6,465 nt of DNA from Azonexus sp. (GTDB taxonomy: Bacteria > Pseudomonadota > Gammaproteobacteria > Burkholderiales > Rhodocyclaceae): the NCBI GenBank assembly GCA_031285115.1, contig JAITWU010000153.1:1-6465 (forward strand), written 5' to 3'. A program made the position numbers and the translations under genes. This document shows positions 2,886-6,465 of this stretch, piece after piece. Every line of letters begins with the position of its first letter. Position 1 is the stretch's first letter. The notes under the pieces are model-generated. The model was not told the origin of the DNA. It was given only the letters and a program-made list of their open reading frames with translations, and did not search any database.

Positions 2886-4937
2886 ATGTCGCAAAACACG
2901 ATTGAAAAGCTGCGTTCCGTCGCCCTGGTCGGCCACGGCGCCGCCGGTAAAACCTCGCTCGCCGAGGCGCTGCTCCAGGCCACCGGAGCCATTGCCGCCC
3001 GTGGCAGTATCGAAAAAGGCAGCACCGTCTGCGATTTCGACCCGCAGGAGAAAGAAGCCGGTCACTCGCTGTATTCGGCGGTGGTCGGTTTCGACCATGA
3101 AGACACCCACATTCACCTGATCGACACGCCGGGCTACCCGGATTTCGCCGGGCAGTCGATTGCCGCGCTGGCTGGCGTCGATACGGCGCTGATCGTCATC
3201 AACGCCCAGACCGGCGTCGAACTGATGACCGAGCGCATGATGCGCTACGCCGCCGAGCGCCGTCTGTGCCGGATGCTGGTCATCAACAAGATCGACGCCG
3301 AAAACCTCGATCTGCCCGGCCTCGTTGCCGACATCCGCGAACGCTTCGGCACGGCGTGCATGATCCTCGACCTGCCCGCGCACGGCGGCGCTGATGTCGT
3401 CGAAGTGCTTGAACACGACGCTGGCGACGCCGATTTCGCTTCCGTCGCCGCCGCCCACCGCGCCTTGATCGACCAGATTGTCGAAGAAGACGAAGACCTG
3501 CTTACCCGCTATCTCGAAGACGGCGCTGACCCGAGCGCCGCCGACCTCCATGCGCCGTTTGAAAAGGCGCTGCGCGAAGGGCATCTGATTCCCATCCTCT
3601 TCGTTTCGGCCAAAACCGGCGCGGGCATCCCGCAACTTCTGCACGCCCTGGCTTCGCTCGCCCCCAACCCGGCGGAAGGCAATCCGCCGCCCTTCTACAA
3701 AGGCGAGCCAGGCGGCGCGGTCGAAGCCTTCGCCGCCCAGCCGGATGCCGCCAAACATGTGCTGGCTCACGTTTTCAAAATCGTCGTCGACCCCTATCTC
3801 GGCAAAATCGGCGTTTTCCGCGTCCATCAAGGCACGCTGAGGAAGGACATGCAACTGTTCGTCGGCGACGGCAAGCGGCCCTTCAAAGTTGCTCATCTCT
3901 ACCGCTTGCAGGGCAAGGAGACGGTCGAAGTCGAGCAACTGCTGCCGGGCGACATCGGCGCTATTGCCAAGGTCGATGAAATCGCCTTCGACAGTGTGCT
4001 GCACGATTCGCACGACGAAGATCACATTCATCTGACGCCGCTCGAATTCCCCCGTCCGATGGCCGGGCTGGCCGTGGAGACGCGCAAGAAGGGCGACGAG
4101 CAGCGCCTCTTTGACATTCTCGGCAAACTGGCGATGGAAGACCCGACCTTCGTCGTCGAGCGTCACCCGACCAGCAACGAGACGGTCATTCGCGGCCTCG
4201 GTGAAATTCACCTCAAAGCCAAGCTGGAAAAAATGGCCAGTCAGTTCAAGCTCGAAGTCGACACCCAGCCGCCGCGCATCCCCTACCGCGAAACCATCAC
4301 CGCCCCGGCGGAAGCCATGTACCGGCACAAAAAGCAGTCGGGCGGCGCGGGCCAGTTTGGCGAAGTGCATCTGCGCATCGAGCCGAAAGAGCGCGGCGAG
4401 GGCTTTGAATTCGTCGATGCCGTCAAGGGCGGCGTCATTCCCGGTGTTTTCATGGCCGCCGTTGAGAAAGGCATCCGTCAGGGTCTGGCGGGCGGCGTCG
4501 TCGCCGGTCATGAAGTCGAAGACCTCAAAGTCACGGTGTTCGACGGCAAAACCCACGCCGTCGACGGCAAGGAAGTGGCCTTCACCATCGCTGGCCGCAA
4601 AGCCGTGATCGAAGCCATCAGGAACGCCCGGCCCATCGTTCTGGAGCCGATCGTCACGATCGAAATCATCGTCCCCGAAGCCAGCATCGGCGACCTCACC
4701 GGCGATCTTTCCAGCCGTCGCGGCCACATCACCGGCACCGACAGCCGTGGCCACGGCCAGGCGGCAATCAGCGGCGAAGTCCCGCTCGCCGAATTGAACG
4801 ACTACCAGTCGCGCCTCAAATCGCTGACCGGCGGCCAGGGCAGCTACAGCATCGAATTCGCCCGCTACGCCGCCGTCCCGCCCAATGTCCAGCAACAACT
4901 GGCGAGCCGCTTCCAGTTGCACGACGAGGATGAGTGA
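2886..4937 (+). CDS. fusA: Elongation factor G-like translational GTPase (EF-G2 type paralogue)
   Basis: The protein has 683 residues, against about 700 for canonical EF-G. From the ATG at 2886: P-loop GHGAAGKT (16-23), G3 DTPGYPDF (80-87), G4 NKID (134-137) and G5 SAKTG (241-245). Domain II begins near 290, domain III near 388. Domain IV carries HKKQSGGAGQFGEV (481-494), GGVIPGVF and the conserved tip His557. Domain V has PEASIGDLTGDLSSRRGHI. All five EF-G domains are thus present, consistent with a ribosome-dependent GTPase that could promote translocation. Two GTPase positions differ from canonical EF-G: the catalytic His of DTPGH is Tyr84, and the switch I Thr of RGIT is Ser61 (AGHS). DxPGY also occurs in Thermus EF-G2, so this is probably the EF-G2 paralogue, with the housekeeping fusA elsewhere beside tuf; the symbol is family-level. 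The start is 2886 or 2883 (ATGATG), with GGAGA at 2876-2880 as ribosome binding site. An upstream in-frame TTG at 2874 is less likely because it would overlap that site. The sensor gene begins 3 bases after the stop. Confidence 0.93.
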   Translation: MSQNTIEKLRSVALVGHGAAGKTSLAEALLQATGAIAARGSIEKGSTVCDFDPQEKEAGHSLYSAVVGFDHEDTHIHLIDTPGYPDFAGQSIAALAGVDTALIVINAQTGVELMTERMMRYAAERRLCRMLVINKIDAENLDLPGLVADIRERFGTACMILDLPAHGGADVVEVLEHDAGDADFASVAAAHRALIDQIVEEDEDLLTRYLEDGADPSAADLHAPFEKALREGHLIPILFVSAKTGAGIPQLLHALASLAPNPAEGNPPPFYKGEPGGAVEAFAAQPDAAKHVLAHVFKIVVDPYLGKIGVFRVHQGTLRKDMQLFVGDGKRPFKVAHLYRLQGKETVEVEQLLPGDIGAIAKVDEIAFDSVLHDSHDEDHIHLTPLEFPRPMAGLAVETRKKGDEQRLFDILGKLAMEDPTFVVERHPTSNETVIRGLGEIHLKAKLEKMASQFKLEVDTQPPRIPYRETITAPAEAMYRHKKQSGGAGQFGEVHLRIEPKERGEGFEFVDAVKGGVIPGVFMAAVEKGIRQGLAGGVVAGHEVEDLKVTVFDGKTHAVDGKEVAFTIAGRKAVIEAIRNARPIVLEPIVTIEIIVPEASIGDLTGDLSSRRGHITGTDSRGHGQAAISGEVPLAELNDYQSRLKSLTGGQGSYSIEFARYAAVPPNVQQQLASRFQLHDEDE

Positions 4938-4940
4938 GCG

Positions 4941-6041
4941 GTGAACGATCAGCATGGCGATGCCCCAGGCCAGCCAGCGGCGGCCAAGGCATCCGGCGCG
5001 GCGGCGGGAAATGGCGACGATATTGTCGCCCTGCGGCAGCTCGTCATCGGGGTGATCGTCTTTTTTGTCCTGACCGGCGGACTGGCGACGATGATTTTCG
5101 ACTACGCCAACAGGAGTATTGCCGAATCGCTCGGGCGCGACACCGCCAAGCGTCAGGCGCAGTTTGACCATGAGCGCATCGTCAATCTGTTGCAGACCGA
5201 TCTGACGCTGGCCCGCCGTCTTGCCGATTCACCGCTGCTCCTCAAATGGGCGCTCGACGAAAACAACCCGGCGCTCAAACGCGCCGCGCTGGCCGAACTG
5301 GAAAGCTACCGTCACTATTTTCGCGGCGGCAGTTACTTCTTCATCCCCCGCGCCAGCGGCAATTACTACCATAACGACGAAAACAACACCTATCCCGGCG
5401 GCGGTCTGGCCCAGGTGATCCTGCCGGGCAAGGTCGAACATGCGTGGTATTTCGCGGCAATCGACAATCCGGAGCAGGTTCAGTTGAACGTCGACCGCAA
5501 TCCGGCGCTGGCCCGAACCAACGTCTGGATCAACATCCAGATGCGCCACTACGATCAGGTCGTGGCGATGGTTGGCAGCGGCATTGATCTCAACGAATTT
5601 ACGCGAACGGTGGCGACCTCGACCGCATCCGGCGCTTACGGGATACTGGCCAGCGCCGATGGGGCCATCCAGATTCACCCCGACACCTCATTGATCGACT
5701 TCAATTCCGGCGCCAAGCGCCCGAATCTGCGGCACACCATCTTTGACCTCCTCGCCAGCGACAATGAACGGCGGCAACTGCGCGAGAGCTTTGACCGCCT
5801 GCGGCGCGGAAGCAGTTCAGTCGAAGTGCTGCGCCTGACCATCGCGGGCCATGCCAAACTGGTCGGCGTAGACTATGTCAAAGAAATCGGCTGGTTCAAT
5901 CTGGCCCTTGTCGATACGGCGCAACTGATCCGCAACCGGGAGTTTTTTACACTCGGCCTGCTGATCGGCGGCGCGCTGCTGCTGATCGTGCTGGTCGTTT
6001 TAACACCATTCGCCCAAAAGCTGCTCCGGCCTTCGCGTTAG
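4941..6041 (+). CDS. Membrane-bound Cache-type sensor protein lacking its output domain (truncated)
   Basis: The reading frame encodes 366 residues. A polar, Ala/Gly-rich N-terminus (1-30) precedes a membrane helix at about 33-55, a periplasmic region at 56-331 and a second helix at about 335-354. The periplasmic part resembles double-Cache ligand sensors: an initial long helix (about 60-105), RHYFRGGSYFFI (124-135), HAWYFAAID (167-175), NVWINIQMR (194-202) and VGSGIDLNEF (211-220). In betaproteobacteria such sensors normally continue after the second helix into HAMP, PAS, GGDEF, kinase or chemoreceptor modules. Here the frame stops about 12 residues after the helix (TPFAQKLLRPSR), so nothing remains to transmit a signal. 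I could not recover an output domain in the other plus-strand frames before 6072. The GTG start lies 3 bases after the EF-G stop; no in-frame ATG is nearer than residue 51 and that would remove most of the first helix. The ligand is unknown. Truncation may be real or linked to the adapter junction 32 bases downstream. Confidence 0.82.
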   Translation: MNDQHGDAPGQPAAAKASGAAAGNGDDIVALRQLVIGVIVFFVLTGGLATMIFDYANRSIAESLGRDTAKRQAQFDHERIVNLLQTDLTLARRLADSPLLLKWALDENNPALKRAALAELESYRHYFRGGSYFFIPRASGNYYHNDENNTYPGGGLAQVILPGKVEHAWYFAAIDNPEQVQLNVDRNPALARTNVWINIQMRHYDQVVAMVGSGIDLNEFTRTVATSTASGAYGILASADGAIQIHPDTSLIDFNSGAKRPNLRHTIFDLLASDNERRQLRESFDRLRRGSSSVEVLRLTIAGHAKLVGVDYVKEIGWFNLALVDTAQLIRNREFFTLGLLIGGALLLIVLVVLTPFAQKLLRPSR

Positions 6042-6072
6042 AGCGGTTTCGTTTTACATGCGCACATACGCC

Positions 6073-6094
6073 AGATCGGAAGAGCACACGTCTG
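6073..6094 (+). other. Illumina TruSeq adapter remnant (assembly artefact)
   Basis: Twenty-two consecutive bases match the TruSeq adapter, beginning AGATCGGAAGAGCACACG and ending TCTG. The match stops at 6094: the adapter would continue AACTCC, but the window reads CGCGGA. Translated, it yields the well-known contaminant peptides RSEEHTS (plus strand) and VLFRS (minus strand). By orientation, the ligated genomic insert lies to the left, ending at 6072, and the DNA to the right is joined to an internal adapter base. It is not biological sequence and marks a probable chimeric join. Confidence 0.96.
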
Positions 6095-6465
6095 CGCGGA
6101 GGCTCGGCCAGCATGTGCCGCAAGCGCCTCCAGTTGTCGACCGCCACGGTCAAACTCAGCAGTGGCGCAATACTGCGACACAGCAGACTGAGCATCAACT
6201 CGGTTTCACGCCACGGACAGCTTGCCCTTGTCTGCAAACCACGACATTTCGTACCCCCAGGGGGAAACGCGCTCGGCATGAGCCATCATGCGAGCGATCA
6301 GCAGGGCTACCAGCAGCTTGCCCTGGAGCCAACTTCGCGCCGCGCGCGCATCGTGTTTTTTCAGATGCCCCAGTTCAATCAAGGACTTCAGGCGCGTGAA
6401 CTCCAACTCGATTTGCCAGCGCAATCGGTAGGTCTCCATCACCTGGACTGCCGTGATGTCAGTGG
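6095..6465 (-). pseudogene. IS4-family transposase, C-terminal fragment, frameshifted and cut by the window edge
   Basis: Read on the minus strand from the window edge, the frame opens with TDITAVQ and gives YRLRWQIELEFTRLK, a perfect Y-(2)-R-(3)-E-(6)-K signature of IS4-family DDE transposases that includes the catalytic Glu. It continues through LIELGHLKKHDARAARSWLQ, a typical C-terminal region, and stops at 6206-6208. Family members usually go on with a segment like PWRETELMLSLL and end near LAEPPRRR. That segment is present in the other frame, from about 6216 down to 6095 (PWRE to LAEPP). One extra base, or two lost bases, between about 6216 and 6250 would explain it, so this is either a decayed copy or a sequencing error. 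The N-terminal part lies beyond 6465. The last few codons and the terminal inverted repeat are missing because the adapter sequence begins there. Confidence 0.85.
6095..6465 (-). mobile_element. Partial IS4-family insertion sequence (3' end of transposase only)
   Basis: The identification rests on the transposase signature. Neither terminal inverted repeat nor a target duplication can be seen: one end is outside the window and the other is replaced by adapter sequence at 6094. The placement next to the sensor gene is therefore unsupported. Multicopy insertion sequences are typical places for short-read contigs to break. Confidence 0.75.

Follow-up and report, generated by a model that had tools for sequence, protein, structure and literature searches.

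Library fragments that end in a ligated adapter are a normal product of read-through, and the closest parallels to the locus described here are untrimmed TruSeq adapters at contig ends. The string concerned is the 22-mer AGATCGGAAGAGCACACGTCTG, the first 22 bases of the 3' arm of the Illumina TruSeq adapter. The adapter identity is visible in the data themselves. IMG/VR contigs often continue the 22-mer as AACTCCAGTCAC, an index, ATCTCGTATGCCGTCTTCTGCTTG, and poly-A; among the first 80 IMG/VR stretches, 57 of 84 matches extend to 34 adapter bases, and many run on through the index, ATCTCGTATGCCGTCTTCTGCTTG, and poly-A. At least 120 IMG/VR stretches contain the 22-mer, and of the 128 matches listed, 113 lie at most 100 bases and 127 at most 250 bases from the outward end of the stretch. 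A single listed match (L054, positions 3889 to 3910) has more than 1 kb past the 22-mer (1,269 bases), where other sequence comes after the adapter, an index, and almost all of the primer sequence behind it. At the family level, the 22-mer is present in 6 of 395 genomes, the genome under study included (control, 0), and the other five show 0, 1, 9, 20, and 47 bases between the 22-mer and the contig end. Chimeric reads formed through microhomology in library end repair are described in PMC8674242. A search by titles for embedded adapters gave no title bearing on this point, and a literature search on artefact peptide names found no paper.

The window, i.e., the whole stretch of DNA analysed, is an entire contig (C236) of 6,465 bases from a draft genome (G000) with 414 contigs, 2.64 Mb, and 83.4% completeness. 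Taken as a whole, the preferred explanation, which is moderately probable, is that an adapter remnant in this contig stands in place of about 115 bases of real sequence that would have connected an intergenic repeat with the terminus of an IS4-family element. The features concerned are the following.

2886 to 4937, plus strand: elongation factor G (EF-G)-like gene, the syntenic anchor, with Pfam EFG domains and 93% identity in genome G013.
4941 to 6041, plus strand: complete open reading frame for a short, predicted sensor-like membrane protein of 366 amino acids, with an orthologue in G013 and, in contig C66 of the same draft, a paralogue.
6042 to 6072, plus strand: first part of an intergenic repeat that breaks off where the adapter begins, one of five copies in the draft.
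6073 to 6094, plus strand: Illumina TruSeq adapter remnant, an exact match absent from all 200 shuffles; the same string stands at or near contig ends elsewhere.
6095 to 6207, minus strand: transposase C terminus continued in the +1 frame and cut at the adapter, similar to the +1 segments of the relatives L159, L160, L161, and L169.
6206 to 6463, minus strand: C-terminal part of an IS4-family transposase in frame 0, ending at GCG-TGA, with its start beyond the contig end; PF01609 E value of 1.5e-6, relatives at most 86% identical.

The 22-mer at positions 6073 to 6094 matches without a mismatch and occurs once in the window. It is absent from 200 of 200 dinucleotide-preserving shuffles even when up to three mismatches are allowed, which bears out the preliminary description in that a match of 22 of 22 bases is beyond chance. 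Position 6095 is a C, in place of the A of the TruSeq adapter, and the match is therefore exactly 22 bases long. This segment is a sequencing adapter remnant, an assembly artefact with no biology of its own. The false peptides that had been foreseen do occur in mechanical translations, RSEEHTS in the plus-strand open reading frame from 6058 to 6399 and VLFRS in the minus-strand frame from 5947 to 6279. A protein database search with the stretch of the reverse frame that lies beyond the adapter found no relative; an entry of 110 residues would have exceeded the length limits of this search.

The adapter reached the draft elsewhere as well. The 13-base core AGATCGGAAGAGC has two sites in the 2.64 Mb, one in the window and one in contig C158 (positions 5 to 17), and the reversed control has none. 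C158 (L004, G000:C158) starts at positions 1 to 17 with CGACGCTCTTCCGATCT, a 17-base piece of the opposite adapter arm, before other sequence follows; together with the 22-mer of the window, this shows that both adapter arms reached this assembly. The window copy has the same outward orientation as the IMG/VR matches and lies on the plus strand directly after the end of the insert, 371 bases short of the nearer (right) contig end. It neither continues as the rest of the adapter nor ends the contig; the next base differs, and IS sequence comes after it. Since the 22-mer is internal here and at or near contig ends elsewhere, it marks a faulty join, and the window adapter is a remnant built into a join, unlike plain terminal carry-over.

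On the left side, the intergenic repeat (GAGCGGTTTCGTTTTACATGCnCACA...) stands directly after the sensor stop codon. The pattern CGGTTTN{0,5}TTTTACATGCNCACA has five occurrences in the draft and none for a control pattern. The other four copies (C189, C190, C222, and C298) continue without adapter and there differ from the window, whose similarity to them ends at 6072. Those in C189, C190, and C298 run into a G+C-rich hairpin of the type CCCCTCTCCCGC...GCGGGAGAGGGG, while the C222 copy shows a more degenerate sequence. The left tail was also considered as an IS terminus and was rejected because of these four copies, three of which have no IS end in the 160 bases shown. At the far end of the contig, positions 1 to 170 contain runs such as CCCCTCC...GGGGAGGGGGACC, which look like another palindromic intergenic repeat.

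The right arm belongs to a transposase with the domain DDE_Tnp_1 (PF01609), detected with 28.6 bits against a cut-off of 23. Its similarity to IS relatives stops at 6095 or within a few bases of it. The +1 segment comprises 37 amino acids before the adapter, compared to 53 in L159, 49 in L160, and 53 in L169, which continue for 12 to 16 codons beyond the break point of the window. An IS end, TTAGCGCTTATGCC, follows the transposase in C189, C131, and L160; in L160 this end and an inverted copy, the latter before the gene, lie 1.4 kb apart. The same end was not found downstream in L159 and L161 at up to two substitutions. As the +1 segment is shorter than in the relatives and no IS end is present, the right arm stops inside the gene. 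A pure insertion of the adapter into a continuous IS can be discarded, as the relatives run 12 to 16 codons past the break, followed by the IS end in C189, C131, and L160.

The surroundings of such IS ends were followed across genomes. The draft itself has four matches to the IS-end pattern, of which those in C131, C189, and C409 were examined and that in C312 is weaker. The three ends examined adjoin a whole hairpin (C131 and C189) or a partial hairpin (C409) of the kind found after the repeat, a pattern suggestive of a target preference. The contigs C131 and C409 themselves start within the IS. At up to two mismatches, the pattern matches 33 of 336 genomes, mostly once each, and since a reversed control also matches many genomes, these scattered matches mean little. 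Genome G116 has 10 IS-end matches, four of them 110 to 140 bases from a contig start, a sign that elements of this kind are prone to contig breaks. A scan of viral contigs for the IS end gave five stretches, and no relative of the transposase was present in any of them.

The evidence on whether the two flanks are neighbours comes from C189, which contains the repeat, the hairpin, the IS end, and the matching transposase codons in the same order and orientation as the flanks of the window. There, 115 bases lie between the points aligning with 6072 and 6095, and 118 bases lead to the GGAGG located at 6098 in the window. Judged by this sequence comparison, the adapter probably replaces about 115 bases of real sequence between true neighbours, the repeat and the IS4-family end. 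The description of the site as a chimeric join is weakened by the repeat-then-IS order of C189, by which the flanks may be real neighbours. The warning that no conclusion from adjacency across the adapter is safe stands, given that homology to related copies breaks on both sides.

A plausible course of events begins with a library fragment that would have ended at 6072 and been ligated to the adapter. The adapter end would then have been joined to IS sequence, possibly by way of a few matching bases, a step that is abnormal in its orientation, and the assembler may have taken the adapter path where real coverage likely failed at the hairpin. The minus-strand sequence at the junction is CCTCCGCG-CAGACG; in relatives, the corresponding CG is followed by AAAACG, GAAACG, or AAAGCG. 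Counted by eye, 3 to 4 of the 6 bases are shared in four relatives, and these could have served to prime or bridge the join of adapter and IS, which is only suggestive.

A random chimera, in which the IS fragment joined to the adapter-bearing end of the sensor fragment came from another organism or a different part of the genome, so that the flanks are no neighbours, is the less probable reading and yet a serious one. The right arm has no second copy in the draft at the DNA level, and its protein is closer to database proteins (up to 86% identical) than to the IS copies of its own genome (60% for C189 and 56%). Among 75 other genomes of the genus, its DNA has one match of 34 bases, and the best protein match in 394 other genomes of the family is 63% identical. 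Closer relatives were sought in plasmids (DNA), in viral contigs, and in samples of the genus, family, and class; none was found in the first two and none close in the samples. With 60% identity to the C189 IS and no second draft copy, the IS fragment could stem from another organism in the sample. The adapter together with 371 non-adapter bases requires one read containing both, and a chimeric library molecule of random origin would yield such a read too; the microhomology-driven chimeric reads described in PMC8674242 fit this origin. Against it, the IS family of the right arm adjoins these very hairpins in this genome, and its orientation and distance from the IS end are about as C189 predicts. 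True neighbourhood of repeat and IS end is hence retained as the preferred reading, and about 115 bases are probably missing at the join. In this contig, gene order across 6072/6095 is no evidence. The case also illustrates how much the repeats of a draft genome can reveal about an adapter embedded in it, without reads.

The sensor-like gene had been described as truncated, with the adapter lying between it and a transposase fragment. Its own stop codon TAG lies at 6039 to 6041, 31 bases before the adapter, and its closest orthologue, which occupies the same position in the sister genome G013, is equally short, showing that the adapter did not truncate the gene; only the right-hand transposase is cut by the adapter. 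The G013 protein has 361 residues, likewise stands beside an EF-G-like gene, and is followed by the next open reading frame 80 bases downstream; the paralogue in C66 has 372 residues. The sensor-like protein has matches in 29 of 60 genomes of the genus searched. At 50% identity or more and with the protein itself excluded, relatives fall among short open frames of 362 (G013), 376 (own C66), and 328 (G058) codons and long ones of 974 (G028), 1,024 (G026), 1,161 (G038), and 950 (G014) codons. The G028 relative is a protein of 966 residues with HAMP (362 to 411), HisKA, HATPase, and two receiver stretches. A Pfam search of the 366-residue window protein gave no family, and dCache_1 (PF02743) appears in the G013 and C66 relatives with E values of 8.5e-9 and 3.7e-8, i.e., 35.7 and 33.7 bits, below the gathering cut-off of 45. 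Like the window gene, L007 and L035 encode short Cache-like proteins with no output domain detected, and one of these stands at the site next to the EF-G-like gene that a complete hybrid histidine kinase occupies in G028. The position beside EF-G is not general: of 29 EF-G loci in other genomes, two (G013 and G026) have the sensor-like gene in the flanking sequence covered, and the G028 relative comes from a separate stretch. The G013 gene downstream of the sensor, sought in the draft as a marker of the true continuation, has no match there, which carries little weight with a draft 83% complete.

A sensor gene truly truncated by insertion of the IS, with the adapter merely interrupting the IS, is improbable. 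Relatives at the same place are long in G028 (966 residues) and G026 (open frame of 1,024), which would mean that an output part is missing from the window gene, but the short forms in G013 and C66 speak against a truncation, and positions 6042 to 6072 match the intergenic repeat, unlike an IS end. The window gene looks sound, a short form that exists elsewhere. With the flanks as neighbours or not, the IS would lie downstream of the sensor stop, leaving the gene uninterrupted.

Genomic sequence equal to the adapter by chance has a negligible probability, given the exact 22-mer that none of the shuffles contains, the break in similarity to related copies at both of its ends, and the opposite adapter arm at the start of C158, and nothing in support of a real genomic origin of the 22-mer was found.

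A further feature concerns the way in which the transposase may be completed. Around the end of frame 0, 17 IS loci were read, and the five closest (L159, L160, L161, L168, and L169) stop exactly at GCG-TGA, like the window. A recognisable C terminus in the +1 frame is present in four of these five (L161 with a stop inside; L168 shifted again after a few codons), and C409 shows the same GCG-TGA site. The subgroup with this site and a +1 C terminus comprises window positions 6095 to 6463 on the minus strand, L159, L160, L161, L168, L169, and L301. The other 12 loci are distant, lack the site, and are left uninterpreted because strand or frame was probably misassigned for some of them. Among the best 120 of 4,272 protein relatives of L160, 117 end in alanine (LA in 107, VA in 9, and MA in 1) and 103 have 390 to 394 residues; relatives of the window fragment are alanine-final in 52 of the 76 listed. 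P0197 has lost the stop and continues into a different sequence. In the distant relatives L265 (428 residues) and L263 (449 residues), a C terminus of the same kind is fused in one frame, and in the likewise distant L262 and L264 it lies in the +1 frame but after TAG, an arrangement for which plain decay could also account. In a comparison of L159 with L169, the +1 segment (36 codons) shows 12, 4, and 25 differences at codon positions 1, 2, and 3 (chi-square P = 0.0003); the pattern is less clear in the other pairs. In the window, as in each of the six close relatives read at this point, frame 0 ends at GCG-UGA, with a conserved C terminus continuing in +1 that is fused in distant relatives. 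On these grounds, a combined reading, in which the adapter hides a real mobile-element boundary and this IS4-family subgroup completes its transposase by programmed +1 frameshifting at GCG-UGA, is put forward tentatively, its probability falling a little short of even. A literature search on such a frameshift in this IS family found no paper.

Compared with known systems, nearly the whole of the short sensor-like protein can be aligned to the N-terminal region of the G028, G026, G038, and G014 relatives, a parallel to hybrid histidine kinases that carry a Cache-like extracytoplasmic sensor. It differs from these kinases in lacking HAMP, kinase, and receiver domains, and it ends where the HAMP domain of G028 begins. 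The right arm resembles IS4-family (DDE_Tnp_1) elements in holding the C-terminal part of their transposase, and its relative L160 has inverted ends. In contrast to such elements, the window fragment is without an IS end and without the N-terminal part, and the last C-terminal portion in its subgroup lies in the +1 frame. The adapter shares with untrimmed TruSeq sequence at contig ends the same 22 bases, the outward orientation, and the position directly after insert sequence. Unlike terminal carry-over, the window copy is internal and halts after 22 bases, with 371 bases behind it, part of them IS coding sequence; a run past the 22-mer as long as this is seen in 1 of the 128 viral-contig matches listed.
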